Part shown: positions 2,449-61,388 of the stretch, in pieces
Numbering within the stretch: position 1 is the first letter of the stretch
Layout of the letters: each line of letters opens with the position of its first letter
Assembly: GCA_014872815.1 (NCBI GenBank)
Contig: WKFK01000005.1
Location: 62,001-126,000 of the forward strand
Reading direction: 5' to 3'
Source of the DNA: Paracoccaceae bacterium
Lineage (GTDB): Bacteria; Pseudomonadota; Alphaproteobacteria; Rhodobacterales; Rhodobacteraceae
Length of the DNA stretch: 64,000 bases
Notes under the pieces: generated by a model
Databases searched by the model: none
What the model saw: only the letters and a program-made list of their open reading frames with translations
Told to the model about the DNA's origin: nothing
Position numbers and translations under genes: made by a program

Positions 2449-3831
2449 ATGACCATAGCCTCAGATCCCCTCGCCCGCCAAGCCCAAGCCTTCGCCCAAG
2501 GGGCAAAACTTGGCTCAGACTACCTGCATGCGCTCTCCGACCGCCACGTGAACGCCGACACAGCCCAACTCCCCGCGCTCGACATAGCGCTCCCCCAACA
2601 AGGCCACACCCCCACCGACGTCCTCTCCCTAATGCAAGATGCCGGCAGCCCCGGCACCGTCGCCACAGCTGCGGGCCGCTACTTCGGCTACGTCATCGGC
2701 GGCGCGCTGCCCGCCGCCTCCGGTGCCCGCGCGCTCCTCTCCGCTTGGGACCAATGTGCCAACGCAGACACCGGCCCCTCGGTGATGCAGATGGAGCAAA
2801 CCGCCGTGCGCTGGATCATCGACCTGCTCAGCCTGCCAGCCCAGACCGAAGGTGCCTTCACCACCGGCGCGACCATGGCCAACATGACCCTGCTGGCCAC
2901 CGCGCGCGACACATTGCTGGCCCGCCTCGGCCACCCGCGCGGTAAAGGCCTGCTTGGTGCGCCTGCCCTGCGCGTGATCGCAAGCGCCGAAATCCACGCC
3001 ACCGTGCTCAAATCCCTGCGCCTGATTGGCCTTGGTTCCGACGACATCGAACGCGTCCCCACCGACGCCCAAGGCCGCATGCGTGCCGACAAGCTGCCCC
3101 AGCTGGATGCCACCTGCATTGTGCTGGCGCAGGCGGGCAACGTCTGCACCGGCGCCTTTGATCCAATTGGCGAGATCGCCGACGCCTGCCAAACCGCAGG
3201 CGCGTGGTTGCATGTCGACGGCGCCTTTGGCCTTTGGGCCCGTGCCGTGCCCGGCCTGGCCGACGCGCTTACGGGTCTCGAGAAAGCCGACAGCTGGGTG
3301 GTGGACGCCCACAAAACTCTCAACGCGCCGTATGACTCCGGCCTAGCCCTCTGCCGCCATCCCGAAGAGATGCGCGCCTCCATGGCCATCGGCGCCGCCT
3401 ACCTGCCACCCACTGATCCCTCGCCTGCTGACCTGACGCCAGAGTTCAGCCGCGCCGCCCGGGGCGCGGAAACCTACGCCGCCCTGCTCTCGCTTGGCCG
3501 CGAGGGGCTCAACGACATGATCCTTGGCTTTCACCACAAAGCCACCCGCCTCGCAGACGCCCTACGCATCGAGGGCTTCACCGTCCCGCATCAGGTGCAC
3601 TTCAATCAGGTGTTTGTAACCCTGCCCGACAGCCCAGAGTTCTGCGCCGAAATCACGGCTGAGGTACAAAGGTCCGGTGAAGCATGGTTTGGTGCCGCCG
3701 CATGGCAAGACCAAAGCGGCTTCCGCCTGAGTGTCTCCAACTGGGCCACGACCGGCGCAGACATCGACCGGCTGGTCTCCGCCATCGTCAAAGCCCGCGA
3801 GACCGTCCTCAATTCAAAAGCTGTTGCCTAA
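2449..3831 (+). CDS. PLP-dependent (group II type) decarboxylase / aminotransferase-fold enzyme
   Basis: A 460-residue enzyme of the pyridoxal-dependent decarboxylase family. The cofactor aspartate is in HVDGAF (residues 255-260). The Schiff-base lysine is in DAHKT (Lys 289), followed by LNAPYDSG. Upstream TTGATMANM (about 138-146) is the phosphate-binding region. Group II members decarboxylate amino acids such as tyrosine, glutamate or diaminobutyrate; the substrate here cannot be read from sequence. The gene is divergent from an ArsR regulator with only about 33 bases between starts, so expression is probably controlled by that regulator. The ATG at 2449 is preceded by only a weak ribosome-binding site. 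Confidence 0.85.
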   Translation: MTIASDPLARQAQAFAQGAKLGSDYLHALSDRHVNADTAQLPALDIALPQQGHTPTDVLSLMQDAGSPGTVATAAGRYFGYVIGGALPAASGARALLSAWDQCANADTGPSVMQMEQTAVRWIIDLLSLPAQTEGAFTTGATMANMTLLATARDTLLARLGHPRGKGLLGAPALRVIASAEIHATVLKSLRLIGLGSDDIERVPTDAQGRMRADKLPQLDATCIVLAQAGNVCTGAFDPIGEIADACQTAGAWLHVDGAFGLWARAVPGLADALTGLEKADSWVVDAHKTLNAPYDSGLALCRHPEEMRASMAIGAAYLPPTDPSPADLTPEFSRAARGAETYAALLSLGREGLNDMILGFHHKATRLADALRIEGFTVPHQVHFNQVFVTLPDSPEFCAEITAEVQRSGEAWFGAAAWQDQSGFRLSVSNWATTGADIDRLVSAIVKARETVLNSKAVA

Positions 3832-3890
3832 AGCGACGGCGCGCCGCGCGGTGGGTTTACGCTTGCCTGCCGCGCGGTCGTAAAACTGCG

Positions 3891-3932
3891 CACCTCCGCA
3901 ATACAGATGCGATACCGACGTAATACCGACGT
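3891..3932 (+). repeat. Dispersed 42-bp element with three 11-bp units, copy 1
   Basis: A leader CACCTCCGC is followed by AATACAGATGC, GATACCGACGT and AATACCGACGT, three units of 11 bases. The copy lies between the decarboxylase gene (ending 3831) and the convergent moaE gene (ending 3970). Two further copies at 15258 and 36232 match at 39 of 42 and 36 of 42 positions by direct comparison. An AAAA run precedes each copy. Confidence 0.8.
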
Positions 3933-3969
3933 CCCAAATGGGCAAAATCCGCCGGTTAACGCAGCTGCA

Positions 3970-4413
3970 TCACCAGCGGCTCAGCGCGTCCTCGTCTTCG
4001 TCCTTCGCGGCGACCCACTCGGCCCCGTCCGCGGTGTATTCTTTCTTCCAGAACGGCGCGCGGGACTTTAGGTAATCCATCAGATACTCCGCCGCCTCAA
4101 AGGCATTCACCCGATGCCGTGAGGCCGTGGCGACCATCATGATCATGTCGCCCTGACGCAGCTCACCATGTCGATGGATGACCAAAACATCGCCAAGATC
4201 CCAACGACTTACAGCCTCCGCCGCGATCTTCTCCAACGCCTTCTGGGTCATACCGGGATAGTGCTCGATCACCATCCGATCCATGCCGCCCTTGTCCGCA
4301 TCACGCACCACACCGGTGAAGGTGACAATCGCGCCCATATTGCTGTGCCCGCTGGCAAAATCCTGCGCCTCGCGGCCAAAATCAAACGGCTCTTCCTGAA
4401 CAACGACGCGCAT
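3970..4413 (-). CDS. moaE: Molybdopterin synthase catalytic subunit MoaE
   Basis: MoaE combines with thiocarboxylated MoaD to insert the two dithiolene sulfurs into precursor Z during molybdenum cofactor synthesis in the cytoplasm. The 147-residue protein shows GAIVTFTGVVRD (about 27-38), the conserved RHR (99-101) with AFEAAEYLMDYLK, and APFWKKE (119-125) holding the active-site lysines. Length is normal for the family. It starts 10 bases after the moaD stop and is the last gene of a pgsA-moaD-moaE run. Confidence 0.95.
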   Translation of the reverse strand: MRVVVQEEPFDFGREAQDFASGHSNMGAIVTFTGVVRDADKGGMDRMVIEHYPGMTQKALEKIAAEAVSRWDLGDVLVIHRHGELRQGDMIMMVATASRHRVNAFEAAEYLMDYLKSRAPFWKKEYTADGAEWVAAKDEDEDALSRW

Positions 4414-14575: not shown

Positions 14576-14719
14576 TCCTATTTACGGCTTAGACTTCTCG
14601 AAACTGCCCCGCAGCGCGCGGGCCGTTTTCCCTTGCCCCCTAATTCCGCATAGCAGAATAAGTTTCCGCATATTGACAGATCGCTCCGAATCCAGTCTTC
14701 TGGGCATAAGTGAAATTAA

Positions 14720-14737
14720 ATTTCGCATTGCGGAAAT
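14720..14737. promoter_or_regulatory. Candidate IclR-type operator upstream of maoC-like gene
   Basis: ATTTCGCATTGCGGAAAT has inverted ends ATTTC/GAAAT. Two further TTCCGCATA half-sites lie at about 14644 and 14664. The same TTTCCGCAT half-site occurs on the bottom strand just before the iclR-type gene (24314-24331), which suggests one regulator for the acyl-CoA genes. Confidence 0.35.
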
Positions 14738-14762
14738 CGATGAGGGCTTGGAGGCCGGTGAA

Positions 14763-15245
14763 ATGATTTCAAGAATTCTCAAACTCGAAGACGGGGTTGG
14801 CTGCGAATTTGGCCTCTCCAAATGGGTGAAAATCGACCAGCCCATGATCGACGCGTTTGCGAAAGCCACCGGCGAAGCGCAGGACATTCACACCAATCCG
14901 GAAACCGCCAAGGAGACCCCCTATGGCGGCACTGTTGCACCAGGTTTCCTGACCCTATCCCTACTCAGCCAGATGATCGCGGACGCCGTGCCGCGCACCG
15001 AAGCTGAAAGCACTGGCATTAACTACGGTTTTGACCGTGTGCGTTTTGTTGCCCCTGTCAAAGCAGGTGCCGAAATCCGCGGCCGTTTCACCCTCGCCAA
15101 ATATTCCGAACCACAACCCGGCGTGGTCGAGATGCAGTGGAACGTGACCGTCGAAATCAAAGGCGAAGACAAACCCGCGCTGGTCGCGCAGTGGAAAAAC
15201 CTGCGCTTTGAACAAGGTGTCGAAACCTACGCGCAAGCCAGCTAA
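14763..15245 (+). CDS. MaoC-family dehydratase (enoyl-CoA hydratase type)
   Basis: A 160-residue hot-dog-fold protein. The family's hydratase motif is seen as DAFAKATGEAQDIHTN (about residues 31-46), where His and the acidic residue before it activate water, and TVAPGFLTLSL follows. It would hydrate an enoyl-CoA or related thioester in beta-oxidation. The chosen ATG at 14763 has GGAGG about 8 bases upstream; an in-frame ATG 90 bases earlier lacks such a site. The thiolase gene follows after a gap holding copy 2 of the 42-bp repeat. Confidence 0.85.
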   Translation: MISRILKLEDGVGCEFGLSKWVKIDQPMIDAFAKATGEAQDIHTNPETAKETPYGGTVAPGFLTLSLLSQMIADAVPRTEAESTGINYGFDRVRFVAPVKAGAEIRGRFTLAKYSEPQPGVVEMQWNVTVEIKGEDKPALVAQWKNLRFEQGVETYAQAS

Positions 15246-15257
15246 AGGCGCAAAACG

Positions 15258-15299
15258 CACCTCCGTAATACAGCCGCGATACCGACGTAATACCGACGT
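15258..15299 (+). repeat. Dispersed 42-bp element, copy 2
   Basis: Leader CACCTCCGT then AATACAGCCGC, GATACCGACGT and AATACCGACGT. It differs from copy 1 at three positions. It lies between two top-strand genes, just upstream of the thiolase ribosome-binding site. Confidence 0.8.
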
Positions 15300-15320: not shown

Positions 15321-16523
15321 ATGCGCGACGCCCTCATCGTCTCCACCGCCCGCACGCCCATTGGCAAAGCCTACCGTGGTGCGTTCAACAACACCCAGGC
15401 TCAAGAACTGATCGGTCATGCGGTGTCTCACGCGGTCTCCCGCGCTGGGTTGGAAGGCCACGAAGTTGAAGACTGCATCATCGGCACCGCGCTTCAACAA
15501 GGCGCCACCGGCGGCAACATCGCCCGCCAAGCTGTTATCCGCGCGGGCCTACCTGTGACCGTTGCAGGCATGTCACTTGATCGCCAATGCGCCTCCGGCA
15601 TGATGGCCATTGCCACAGCCGCCAAGCAGGTCGTGCACGATGGCATGGACGTGGCGATTGGCGGCGGCGTGGAGTCCATCTCTCTGGTGCAAAACGACAA
15701 AATGCGCATGGACCGCCGCGTTGATCCTTGGATCAAGGAACACAAACCGGCGCTCTACATGTCCATGCTAGAGACCGCCGAGATCGTCGCCGCCCGCTAC
15801 GGTGTGACCCGCGAAGACCAAGACGCCTACGCGCTGCAATCCCAACAACGCACCGCCGTCGCACAGGCCGCGGGCAAGTTTGACGACGAGATTGTGCCCC
15901 TGACCTCCACCATGGGTGTGATGGACAAAGAGACCAAAGAAATCTCCTTCCAAGAGGTTACGCTTGAAAAGGACGAGGGCAACCGCCCCTCTACCACCTT
16001 GGAGAACCTGCAAGGCCTGAACCCCGTGTTCAAAGACGGTCAACAGGTCTCAGAAGGCCAATTCATCACCGCTGGCAACGCCAGCCAACTGTCAGACGGC
16101 GCTTCCGCCTCGGTGATCATGGAAGCGAAAATAGCGGAAAAACAAGGCCTTGAGCCACTAGGCCGGTACGTTGGCGTGATGGCCGCAGGGTTAGAGCCGG
16201 ACGAAATGGGCATCGGCCCAATCCATGCGGTGCCCAAATTGCTGAAGGCCCACGGCCTCAAGATGGACGACATCGGCCTCTGGGAACTCAACGAAGCCTT
16301 CGCCTGTCAGGTGCTGCACTCCGCCCGCGTGTTGGACATCCCAAACGATATCCTGAACGTCAACGGCGGCGCCATTTCCATCGGCCACCCCTACGGGATG
16401 TCCGGCGCGCGCATGGTTGGCCACGCATTGATCGAAGGCAAACGCCGGGGCGCCAACTACGTCGTCTGCACCATGTGCGTCGGTGGCGGCATGGGCGCTG
16501 CGGGGCTGTTCGAGGTTCTGTAA
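15321..16523 (+). CDS. Acetyl-CoA C-acyltransferase (thiolase)
   Basis: A 400-residue thiolase that cleaves 3-ketoacyl-CoA with CoA in the last step of beta-oxidation. The acyl-accepting cysteine is in DRQCASGMM (Cys 90). The catalytic His is in [16 protein letters not shown], and the second Cys is in [13 protein letters not shown] near the C-terminus. The ATG at 15321 has AGGA about 9 bases upstream. It probably works with the dehydrogenases, hydratase and ligase encoded at 18-24 kb. Confidence 0.94.
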
Positions 16524-35469: not shown

Positions 35470-36168
35470 ATGCGGTCGCTCAGTGCCTTCGTCAGCAATC
35501 ATTGGCAGCTGCTGACTCTGACGCTGCTGATCACGCTCTTGTGGAACACCGATGTGCTTTTGCCGCTGCGCATTCTCACGGTGTTCCTGCACGAGCTGGC
35601 CCACGCACTCGCTGCCATCTTCACCGGCGGCGACGTCCTCAGCCTCTCTATCAGCCCTAACGAGGGCGGATTTGTCACCGCACGTGGCGGCAGCCCGTTC
35701 TGGATCAGCTCCGCCGGGTATATCGGCTCTCTCTTGATCGGCGCTACCCTCTTCATCCTTGCGCTGCGCACCCACTGGGACCGGGCCATCCTCGCGGCAT
35801 TTGGCGCGATCACCTTAATGGTGGCAGCCTTCTATGTGCGCGACCTCTTTGCCCTTGGCTTCACACTTGCCACCGGCGCGGCGATGCTACTGGCCAGCCG
35901 TTATCTCAGCCTGGAGATCAACGACATGATCCTGCGCACCATCGGGATCAGCAGCATCATCTACGCACCTCTCGACATTTTTGACGACACCATCCGCCGC
36001 GCCCACCTGCGCTCTGACGCGCGCATTCTGGCGGAGCAGGTTGGCGGCTCGACACTGTTCTGGGGCGGGCTCTGGTTGGTAATCAGTCTGGGGGTGATCG
36101 CCCTGACGCTCCGTTATGGCTTGCCACAAAACAGCAACATCACCCTGCGCCAGAAGACGACGCCCTAA
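35470..36168 (+). CDS. M50-like membrane metallopeptidase homolog
   Basis: A 232-residue membrane protein with about six hydrophobic segments. The zinc-binding HExxH motif is in FLHELAHALAA (about residues 40-50), within the first helices as in site-2-protease relatives of the M50B-like group. SAGYIGSLLIGA resembles the conserved Gly-rich helix. The protein lacks PDZ domains. The substrate is unknown. It starts three bases after the hydroxylase stop, so it is probably in the same operon; copy 3 of the 42-bp repeat follows. Confidence 0.78.
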   Translation: MRSLSAFVSNHWQLLTLTLLITLLWNTDVLLPLRILTVFLHELAHALAAIFTGGDVLSLSISPNEGGFVTARGGSPFWISSAGYIGSLLIGATLFILALRTHWDRAILAAFGAITLMVAAFYVRDLFALGFTLATGAAMLLASRYLSLEINDMILRTIGISSIIYAPLDIFDDTIRRAHLRSDARILAEQVGGSTLFWGGLWLVISLGVIALTLRYGLPQNSNITLRQKTTP

Positions 36169-36231
36169 CCCGCACTCAGCCATTTTTGCAAAGCAAACAC
36201 CAAAACGAGACGGAGACAGCGCCAAAAACGC

Positions 36232-36273
36232 CACCTCCGCAAAACAGACGAAATACCGACGCGATACCGACGT
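36232..36273 (+). repeat. Dispersed 42-bp element, copy 3
   Basis: Leader CACCTCCGC then AAAACAGACGA, AATACCGACGC and GATACCGACGT. It differs from copy 1 at six positions. It lies between converging genes and ends just before the aminotransferase stop codon. GTGC-TAAA-GCAC (36272-36283) overlaps its end. Confidence 0.75.
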
Positions 36274-36274
36274 G

Positions 36275-37393
36275 CTAAAGCACCGTATCAAGCACATTTC
36301 GTAAACGATTTATTGTCGCGTCTACGTCGTACAATTTGTCCAATCCAAACAGCCCAAGCCGGAAGGTCATGAAGCCCTCAGGCTCATCACAAGCGAGCGG
36401 TACCCCTGCGGCAATCTGCATGCCCTCCGCAGCAAACTTGCTGCCGTTCTGAACCCCCGGATCACTGGTGTAGCTCACAACCACACCCGGCGCGCCAAAG
36501 CCATCTGCCGCCACCGACTGAATACCTTTGTCTTTCAGAAGGTTACGCACACCGTCGCCCAGTGCCCACTGCGCCTCACGCAGCTTCTCAAATCCATACT
36601 CTTTGGTTTCCAGCATTGTATCGCGGAACGCCCGCAACGCATCTGTCGGCATGGTCGCGTGATAAGCGTGGCCGCCGTTTTCATAGGCCATCATAATGTC
36701 GCGCCACTTTTTCAGGTCGAGCGCGAAGCTGTCAGACTGGGTATTTTCCAACCGGGCCAATGCCTTATCCGACATCACCACCAGCCCAGCCGACGGCGAA
36801 GCGCTCCAGCCTTTCTGAGGCGCGGAGCACAACACATCCACACCCAGCGCCTGCATGTCGATCCAGACACAGCCTGACGCGATACAATCGAGAACCATCA
36901 AGGCCCCAACCTCGTGTGCGGCATCTGCCATGGCTTTGATGTAGTCATCCGGCAAGATCACACCGGCGCTGGTTTCCACATGAGGCGCAAAGACAACCTG
37001 CGGTTTTTGCTTATGAATTTCGGCAACGACGTCCGCAATCGGCGCTGGCGCAAACGGCGCGGTGGCCCCGTTTCCCGTCTGCCGCGCCTTCATCACCGTG
37101 CTTTCCGCCGCAAAACCGCCAGCTTCAAAAATCTGGCTCCAGCGGTAAGAAAACCACCCATTGCGCACCACCAGCGTTTTCTGCCCCGCAGCAAACTGCC
37201 GCGCAACCGCTTCCATGCCATAGGTCCCGCCGCCCGGAACCAAGGCCACTGCGTCTGCGTTATAGACCTCCTTCAACAGGTCGGAGATATCCCGCATAAC
37301 CTGCTGAAAAGTCTTTGACATATGGTTCAAGGACCGATCCGTGAACACCACGGAAAACTCGCTCAACCCACCGGGATCAACATCATGCGCCAT
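36275..37393 (-). CDS. Class V aminotransferase (alanine-glyoxylate / serine-pyruvate type)
   Basis: A 372-residue PLP enzyme. LVPGGGTYGMEAVARQ (about residues 51-66) binds the cofactor phosphate, LMVLDCIASGCV holds the cofactor aspartate, and the Schiff-base lysine is in CSAPQKGWSASPSAG. This pattern fits enzymes moving amino groups between alanine, serine or 2-aminoethylphosphonate and keto acids; the exact pair is open. The ATG at 37393 has AAGGAG 7 bases upstream, better than the in-frame ATG at 37411. Two Lrp/AsnC regulator genes lie immediately upstream on the same strand. Confidence 0.88.
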   Translation of the reverse strand: MAHDVDPGGLSEFSVVFTDRSLNHMSKTFQQVMRDISDLLKEVYNADAVALVPGGGTYGMEAVARQFAAGQKTLVVRNGWFSYRWSQIFEAGGFAAESTVMKARQTGNGATAPFAPAPIADVVAEIHKQKPQVVFAPHVETSAGVILPDDYIKAMADAAHEVGALMVLDCIASGCVWIDMQALGVDVLCSAPQKGWSASPSAGLVVMSDKALARLENTQSDSFALDLKKWRDIMMAYENGGHAYHATMPTDALRAFRDTMLETKEYGFEKLREAQWALGDGVRNLLKDKGIQSVAADGFGAPGVVVSYTSDPGVQNGSKFAAEGMQIAAGVPLACDEPEGFMTFRLGLFGLDKLYDVDATINRLRNVLDTVL

Positions 37394-37492
37394 CGGGAAA
37401 CTCCTTATCATGTTACCTAAGGTCTACCGCAAAGTGGCGCGTCCACCAATCACCCAAAACCTTCAAGACCCTTCGTCATTTCCATCAAGCAC

Positions 37493-61256: not shown

Positions 61257-61289
61257 AAAAAGCCCCGTTCCGGCCAAGCGGAAGGGGCT
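61257..61289 (-). terminator. Terminator of the SAM-II leader (expression platform)
   Basis: AGCCCC-TTCC pairs with GGAA-C-GGGGCT (arms 61261-61271 and 61280-61289, one bulge) and is followed on the bottom strand by TTTTTATTT. It lies between the aptamer and metZ, as needed for transcription attenuation. Confidence 0.85.
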
Positions 61290-61299
61290 CCTTCGTCCT

Positions 61300-61355
61300 G
61301 ACCTCTTTAGCGGCATCTTTAACGTGGCCCGCAATCCGGTAACAAATCGCCACTC
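61300..61355 (-). ncRNA. SAM-II riboswitch aptamer
   Basis: Read on the bottom strand, GTGGC (61353-61349) pairs with GCCAC (61328-61324) as stem P1. Between them GATTTGTTACCGGATTGCGG forms the loop, and after P1 comes GTTAAAGATGCCGCTAAAGAGG. The loop ACC/GCGG can pair with CCGC/GGT to make the H-type pseudoknot. Order and spacing agree with the SAM-II (metA) consensus, including GCTAAA-(A/G)-AGG. The gene it controls, metZ, is a known SAM-II target in alphaproteobacteria. Confidence 0.9.
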
Positions 61356-61359
61356 TCGC

Positions 61360-61388
61360 GGATTACGCCGCAACGCCGAAAACGTCAA
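61360..61388 (-). promoter_or_regulatory. Promoter of the metZ leader
   Basis: On the bottom strand TTGACG (61388-61383) and TAATCC (61365-61360) are separated by exactly 17 bases. Transcription would begin about at the first aptamer base, which fits a riboswitch leader. Confidence 0.7.

Follow-up and report, generated by a model that had tools for sequence, protein, structure and literature searches.

A four-unit array of 11-bp direct repeats, evenly spaced and oriented with replication, in a Shimia genome and other Rhodobacteraceae

The window, by which we mean the whole stretch of 64,000 nucleotides analysed here, carries three copies of a short tandem array, each lying in a gap behind the end of a + strand gene (Table 1). 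A sequence-only reading of this DNA had located these copies at 3891-3932, 15258-15299 and 36232-36273, and all three are present, all on the + strand, with the claimed identity (39 of 42 bases for copies 1 and 2, 36 of 42 for copies 1 and 3) and with a run of A residues directly upstream of each. That reading described the element as a leader followed by three 11-bp units. The 11-bp units stand, but the leader is a diverged first unit, as can be seen in the usual form of the element in other genera, and the element therefore consists of four units and spans 44 bp. The core ATACCGACGT, with up to one mismatch, has 10 matches in the window as compared with 1.37 expected, and none of 100 shuffles reached 10. 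An inverted repeat, CCGCGCGG, with an 18-bp loop lies at 3844-3877, between the gene end and copy 1, and is possibly a terminator. The only Rfam match over the window was a SAM_alpha riboswitch at 61286-61363 on the - strand (59.9 bits), and there was no structured-RNA match on the arrays.

Table 1. Arrays and neighbouring features, in window coordinates.
Feature	Position	Strand	Remarks
Array copy 1	3889..3932	+	units 3889-3899, 3900-3910, 3911-3921, 3922-3932; convergent gap
Array copy 2	15256..15299	+	units 15256-15266, 15267-15277, 15278-15288, 15289-15299; between two co-directional + genes
Array copy 3	36230..36273	+	units 36230-36240, 36241-36251, 36252-36262, 36263-36273; convergent gap
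GTTAAC palindrome	3955..3960	.	32 bp past the start of the last ATACCGACG core of copy 1; genome-wide helical phase
Gene	2449..3831	+	ends 59 bp ahead of copy 1
Gene converging on copy 1	3970..4413	-	3' end faces copy 1
Gene	14673..15245	+	ends 12 bp ahead of copy 2
Gene after copy 2	15321..16523	+	plasmid relatives annotated acetyl-CoA C-acyltransferase
Gene	35470..36168	+	ends 63 bp ahead of copy 3
Gene converging on copy 3	36275..37411	-	3' end faces copy 3

The genome of the window (3.96 Mb in 16 contigs, genus Shimia in the GTDB sense) gave 85 forward and 66 reverse overlapping matches to the tandem pattern with up to three mismatches, while the reversed control gave 0 and 0; 100 of these 151 places were listed. 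A 42-position profile, run on stretches around the listed pattern matches and around additional leader matches, recognised at least 84 copies of about 66 bits, a count from which weak copies may be missing. The three copies noticed at first in the window are thus all there, as members of a family spread genome-wide, with a density of about one array per 45 kb and with arrays on 13 of the 16 contigs among the places listed. The usual copy starts with a diverged first unit, GCACCTCCGC, and continues with RAWACAGWCGC, GATACCGACGT and AATACCGACGT; a few copies have one unit more or one fewer than four. Contigs C2, C3, C7 and C8 end near a degenerate array (L091-L094), three of them with the same 19-bp match, and because of that the array probably borders repeated sequence there; Rfam had no match on the fetched ends of these four contigs.

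The search of the whole genome and of other Rhodobacteraceae for the tandem unit, proposed with the sequence-only reading, was productive on both sides: next to the copies in the own genome, the strict pattern was found in 28 of 394 genomes of the family, the own genome counted, and many of them had tens of matches. The carriers among the matches listed were Silicimonas, Roseovarius, Boseongicola, Pseudooceanicola, Shimia, Salinihabitans and Sulfitobacter aestuariivivens, and none matched among 16 genomes of the class that belong to other families. In other genera the usual form is GCACCGACGY followed by RATACCGACGY, RATACCGACGY and RATACCGACGT, the unit spelling being uniform inside each genome and different among genera. 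Some of the comparisons below use a set of named loci, 119 among the matches listed; short valS segments of two same-genus genomes (G014 and G023) are identical to those in named loci of Shimia abyssi and Shimia aestuarii, which identifies the genus as Shimia. The unit or a related description was not found in any describing paper by a full-text literature search.

Among the same-genus relatives, 20 of 23 matched the strict pattern, and the three others had no detectable array. A single change on a valS tree (one gene, with modest support of 73/93) accounts for the three array-free genomes. In G009, which is one of these, 400 kb were scanned and showed no tandem family of any unit with a period of 9-14; the same scan recovered the known unit at 9 places in the closed genome G307, of another genus, and at 3 places in the window. 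As three same-genus genomes have no detectable array and 400 kb of one of them contains no substitute tandem family, the array system is dispensable. Mobile replicons were also searched. Neither the 72,556 plasmid nor the 50,697 phage records, collections from which close relatives of this genome may be missing, contained a match to the own-genus consensus at E 0.1, and the family-wide consensus gave in the same records only weak matches (E 2-9) to three haloarchaeal plasmids and two unrelated phages. The plasmid collection includes Sulfitobacter, Roseovarius and Leisingera, the hosts of which may or may not carry arrays; none of 6 genomes had the RepC plasmid marker.

Unexpectedly, the reversed control matched in one genome of another genus (G106). 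Its arrays consist mostly of four to five 11-bp units of the form NNNCCATACGS, and 23 of the 24 arrays examined lie on the C-rich strand; the palindrome GTTAAC, listed in Table 1 beside copy 1, is not enriched beside them. Another family genome (G249) had 3 + 1 reversed-control matches, possibly a further relative of CCATACG. A loop of valS contains an array-like stretch in 8 of 25 Shimia-genus genomes and none in 13, with 4 unreadable. The valS of G106 carries an array in the spelling of that genome, between the same flanking words and with the same total length as in G014 and G023. A clean insertion into valS was rejected, as the array replaces a variable loop. In two further gaps with both neighbour genes in common, one genome has the own array and the other an array of the G106 type, an agreement that may be due to chance.

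The arrays are spaced more evenly than random sites would be. The 69 gaps between listed copies of the own genome have a mean of 44 kb and a coefficient of variation of 0.60, compared with 0.93 for random placement; the corresponding values are 0.59 and 0.91 for a relative, G017 (58 gaps), and 0.74 and 0.98 for G307 (70 gaps, p = 0.005). Very short gaps are rare, those below 10 kb numbering 1 in the own genome as compared with 13.5 expected, 0 in G017 (12.8 expected) and 2 in G307 (12.5 expected), in tests that use listed copies, from which weak copies may be missing.

Array orientation follows the local strand skew. The third-codon-position GC skew, read on the strand of the element, was negative in 74 of 81 own copies, 29/30 in G017, 26/26 in G307, 76/80 at the named loci and 8/10 in other relatives, as compared with 98 of 177 control gene ends, each taken in the direction of its gene. 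The 3 of 84 own copies with scores of at most 40 were excluded from this and from the neighbour-orientation, GTTAAC, flank-word and GGGNAGGG analyses, and the skew, the GTTAAC enrichment and phasing, and the shared-gap comparison used 80 of the at least 119 named loci. In G307 the raw GC skew was noisy and third-position skew was used instead; in 20 sampled stretches of this genome the sign of the skew changes in blocks, and nearby copies mostly follow, with exceptions that include the copies at 2687357 and 3230109. The best two-arm split of orientations in G307 has its breaks at 1.01-1.07 and 2.92-3.02 Mb, with 50 of 71 listed copies concordant (permutation p = 0.024). The only HTH_ParB match lies at 2.935 Mb and its antipode at 1.134 Mb; with the origin set at the former and the terminus at the latter, only 48 of 71 listed copies were concordant (p = 0.002). 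The apparent polarity switch in G307 brackets parB, at this two-arm agreement, and arrays are sparse on one side of the origin. Neighbouring copies share orientation in 46 of 69 cases in the own genome (34.2 expected, p = 0.003) and in 38 of 70 in G307, which is not beyond chance (p = 0.24). If the G-rich strand is the leading one, the arrays as written point toward the origin, and the G307 split agrees with that. The KOPS-type word GGGNAGGG lies mostly on the strand opposite to the arrays (44 vs. 12 in the own genome, 12 vs. 5 in G307 and 47 vs. 19 at the named loci). Array orientation thus goes with the replication strand and not with co-directional genes. To judge from the polarity together with the even spacing, the arrays would have a task at the scale of the chromosome that is linked to the direction of replication. 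One family genome (G364), with 14 forward and 2 reverse array matches, is a poor fit to a symmetric two-replichore model.

With respect to genes, a simple gene caller places all but one of the 84 own copies (83) outside genes, the sole exception being inside valS. The two outcomes that were named with the sequence-only reading as refuting it, a lack of further copies and scatter in coding DNA, are not seen in the own genome. At the named loci, 10 of 120 arrays are inside predicted genes. The proposed mapping to gene 3' ends placed most own copies near such ends: out of 81 with both neighbours called, 30 are in convergent, 47 in co-directional and 4 in divergent gaps, and 12 of 37 window gaps longer than 60 bp are divergent. 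Divergent gaps are not avoided at the named loci, where they contain 19 of the 90 arrays for which both neighbours are present. A position after a top-strand gene, which the sequence-only reading gave for all three window copies, is correct for these, but it does not extend to the whole genome, 26 copies running with their co-directional genes and 21 against them. Since there is no clear orientation preference with respect to co-directional genes, it is presumably DNA and not RNA that acts. The hint of 3'-end processing found no support as a strand-specific RNA signal: six folded strands had z between -1.41 and 1.15 relative to shuffles, that is, no notable fold, and no inverted repeat of 8 bp or longer was present inside the three window arrays. 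An RNA element was rejected for the lack of an orientation preference relative to co-directional genes, of a notable fold and of an Rfam match on the arrays. Inspection by eye of the genes beside the four divergent-gap copies revealed no candidate regulator, and the clustering of neighbour genes, with duplicates removed, revealed shared positions, which may be due to chance, and no recurrent candidate binding protein.

The sequence of the array is constrained position by position. Thirty of the about 75 copies of G017, those with the best pattern matches, were compared with the own genome, a choice that favours conservation of the last units; 27 of them have an orthologous own copy, and 3 have none in the own set. 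Differences at the orthologous sites number 127 in 1134 element positions, as compared with 1014 in 3507 for intergenic and 1732 in 13206 for coding flanks. Once two pairs in which the units are shifted had been set aside, the counts were 27 of 775 (3.5%) for high-information positions, 58 of 225 (26%) for low-information positions and 790 of 3031 for intergenic flanks. In 22 of 25 loci the divergence of the element is below that of its gap, and within positions 1-20, which are largely outside the selection bias, changes affect 15 of 300 conserved and 36 of 150 variable positions. The sites themselves turn over, arrays being gained and lost at orthologous sites, where element-free gaps are not cleanly alignable. 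The gap of copy 2, before the acyltransferase gene, holds an array in 10 of 20 anchored or attempted genomes; one genome has an 11-bp unit deleted, one has a degraded-looking array, in six it is absent, and two could not be anchored.

The flanks of the arrays show a regular organisation as well. A/T positions recur every ~10-11 bp on both sides (79 own copies), and GTTAAC is enriched in gaps with an array: 17 occurrences in 3.2 kb vs. 0 in 1.0 kb without an array for own convergent gaps, 20 in 9.2 kb vs. 1 in 8.4 kb for own co-directional gaps, and 10 in 10.0 kb vs. 3 in 27.6 kb for named co-directional gaps. The distance of GTTAAC from the array is phased, with a period of 11.5-11.6 bp on the right (n = 61, z = 44.9 as compared with a random maximum averaging 2.8) and of 11.4 on the left (n = 46, z = 16.4), values in which part of the Silicimonas signal may stem from mutually similar flanks. 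Own copies alone phase GTTAAC both on the right (n = 23; 0 of 1000 random sets as high) and on the left (n = 20, p = 0.003), and the named loci minus Silicimonas phase it on the right (n = 15), not significantly on the left (n = 11, p = 0.19). The GC-rich control words GGCGC and GCGCC were unphased, as was GCAAC; most A/T words and right-side GTTGC were phased. An avoidance of GTTAAC elsewhere was unsupported by Markov expectation. Terminator hairpins at GTTAAC were rejected, their stems being no better than those at random nearby positions, with single cases hairpin-like. Additionally, CGCAACG/CGTTGCG is enriched beside own arrays (25 vs. 1.6 expected), and GTTGC is phased on their right (n = 13, p = 0.001), on the left not clearly. 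Three Silicimonas arrays (L122, L124 and L134) seem to share longer flanks, with TTAAC downstream, and the element is perhaps larger there; two of these loci contain a TTCGCCTTGTTTTC stretch.

The constraint pattern, the helical phasing and the indifference to gene strand suggest that double-stranded DNA is the substrate here, as part of a nucleoprotein site. The idea of an iteron-like binding-site array with one unit per helical turn, put forward in the sequence-only reading, gains support from the unit phase, the phased flanks and the constraint on the core; such an array would be bound by protein. We give about an even chance to the array being a polar site, found chromosome-wide, to which an oligomeric protein binds in the course of segregation or organisation linked to replication, a proposal in which we infer binding, stoichiometry and job alike. 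The site would be read in double-stranded DNA by four protomers arranged head-to-tail on a single face of the helix, each taking up one turn, with contacts that would extend into the flanks through the in-phase A/T positions and the GTTAAC palindrome. About 85 such sites, ~45 kb apart and oriented to ori and ter, would constitute chromosome-wide landmarks. They would most likely be read by a process linked to replication or segregation and sensitive to direction along the replichore; a translocase, a loop extruder and a protein that organises the nucleoid are examples. More tentatively, and with the chances rather against it, the landmarks, as evenly spaced protein arrays of four to five units, might tell a DNA-tracking machine the direction of the replichore or the end of a domain, like oriented CTCF sites in animals; the recognition sequence and its reader would then co-evolve fast, with genera respelling the unit and some sites staying. 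The tracking machine could be a loop extruder, a translocase or a nuclease telling own from foreign DNA.

The main rival explanation, which we consider doubtful, is that the array is a small mobile repeat without genes of its own, copied into the strand that is exposed in lagging-strand synthesis, with target immunity spacing the copies and selection clearing them from genes and promoters. The gain and loss of copies at orthologous gaps and a spelling that is uniform per genome and different between genera are what such a repeat would produce, and the replication-strand bias and the few gaps below 10 kb would agree with insertion at the fork under immunity. Polarity and spacing could thus come from a fork bias together with target immunity, but not readily the position-specific constraint, in which variable positions change like flanking DNA and conserved ones 7 times less, or the presence of GTTAAC beside arrays in helical phase. 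Moreover, the three window copies have no inner inverted repeat, the valS copy replaces a loop and is not a clean insertion, and no convincing plasmid or phage copy was found.

It is unlikely that the arrays act by titration or as regulatory sites, soaking up an OmpR/PhoB-class regulator (such as CtrA) or a DnaA-like protein, or timing replication. Proteins of both kinds are candidates for head-to-tail binding with an 11-bp period, which the arrays have, and the TTAA-type words beside them resemble what we take to be CtrA half-sites. However, own copies are scarce in divergent gaps (4 of 81), titration needs no polarity, and the unit is respelled in another genus though regulator proteins of the CtrA and DnaA types are conserved. 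Very improbable is an element that acts in transcription at the 3' ends of genes, either as a bidirectional roadblock terminator or, in 3' untranslated regions, as an RNA-binding site, which the 30 convergent and 47 co-directional positions out of 81 would suit, but not the 26 to 21 orientation in co-directional gaps or the lack of a notable fold and of an Rfam match on the array, and which leaves the replication-strand bias unexplained.

If the arrays are polar binding sites as proposed, they would represent an undescribed DNA-reading system in an abundant marine group. Their interest lies in a long, composite, evenly spaced and position-constrained site that is respelled in another genus yet shares its place, and the array-free Shimia clade offers a natural control. 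Even as a mobile repeat, the array would be unusual in spacing itself and in tracking the replication strand. To our knowledge, few replication-polar bacterial DNA signals are known, and of these KOPS and Chi are short and frequent.

The kind of element appears to be new, as the known kinds considered, in part from general descriptions of them, each fail on a defining feature or on plain comparison; the job of the array may still prove a known one. Enterobacterial REP/BIME elements are short, dispersed and intergenic, located at gene 3' ends and between convergent genes, and the arrays are likewise short, dispersed, high-copy and extragenic (83/84). Unlike REP/BIME, they lack an inverted repeat or a notable fold and so fail as hairpin elements; they are made of 11-bp direct repeats, and their orientation follows the replication strand. 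With iterons and centromere repeats the arrays share tandem 11-bp units, head-to-tail, of about one helical turn each. The parC site of plasmid R1 consists of 11-bp direct repeats at one locus per plasmid, whereas the arrays are about 85 dispersed four-unit chromosomal sites. Sites of matS/MatP, SlmA and Noc resemble the arrays in being tens of protein sites per chromosome at a spacing of tens of kb; they are palindromic, non-polar and regional, whereas the arrays are direct-repeat and polar, occur on at least 13 of the 16 own contigs and are spread around the closed G307 chromosome. Fork barriers of the Tus/Ter and RTP/Ter types are polar protein-binding sites read relative to replication. 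The arrays are likewise polar with respect to replication and putatively protein-bound, but they are far more numerous, evenly spaced and extend beyond one part of the chromosome. There is also a parallel with KOPS (FtsK orienting polar sequences, GGGNAGGG, the sites of the FtsK gamma domain), since the arrays too are chromosomal and appear to be oriented along the axis of replication; the closed genome G307 has an apparent switch near parB. A 2026 paper (PMC13342612) reports that GGGNAGGG is polar on large replicons, those of Paracoccus being named. In contrast to this 8-bp word, which is present separately in array loci, mostly on the opposite strand, the arrays are 44 bp of ATACCGACG-type direct repeats, in ~85 copies that are evenly spaced and, in the own genome, nearly all outside genes.
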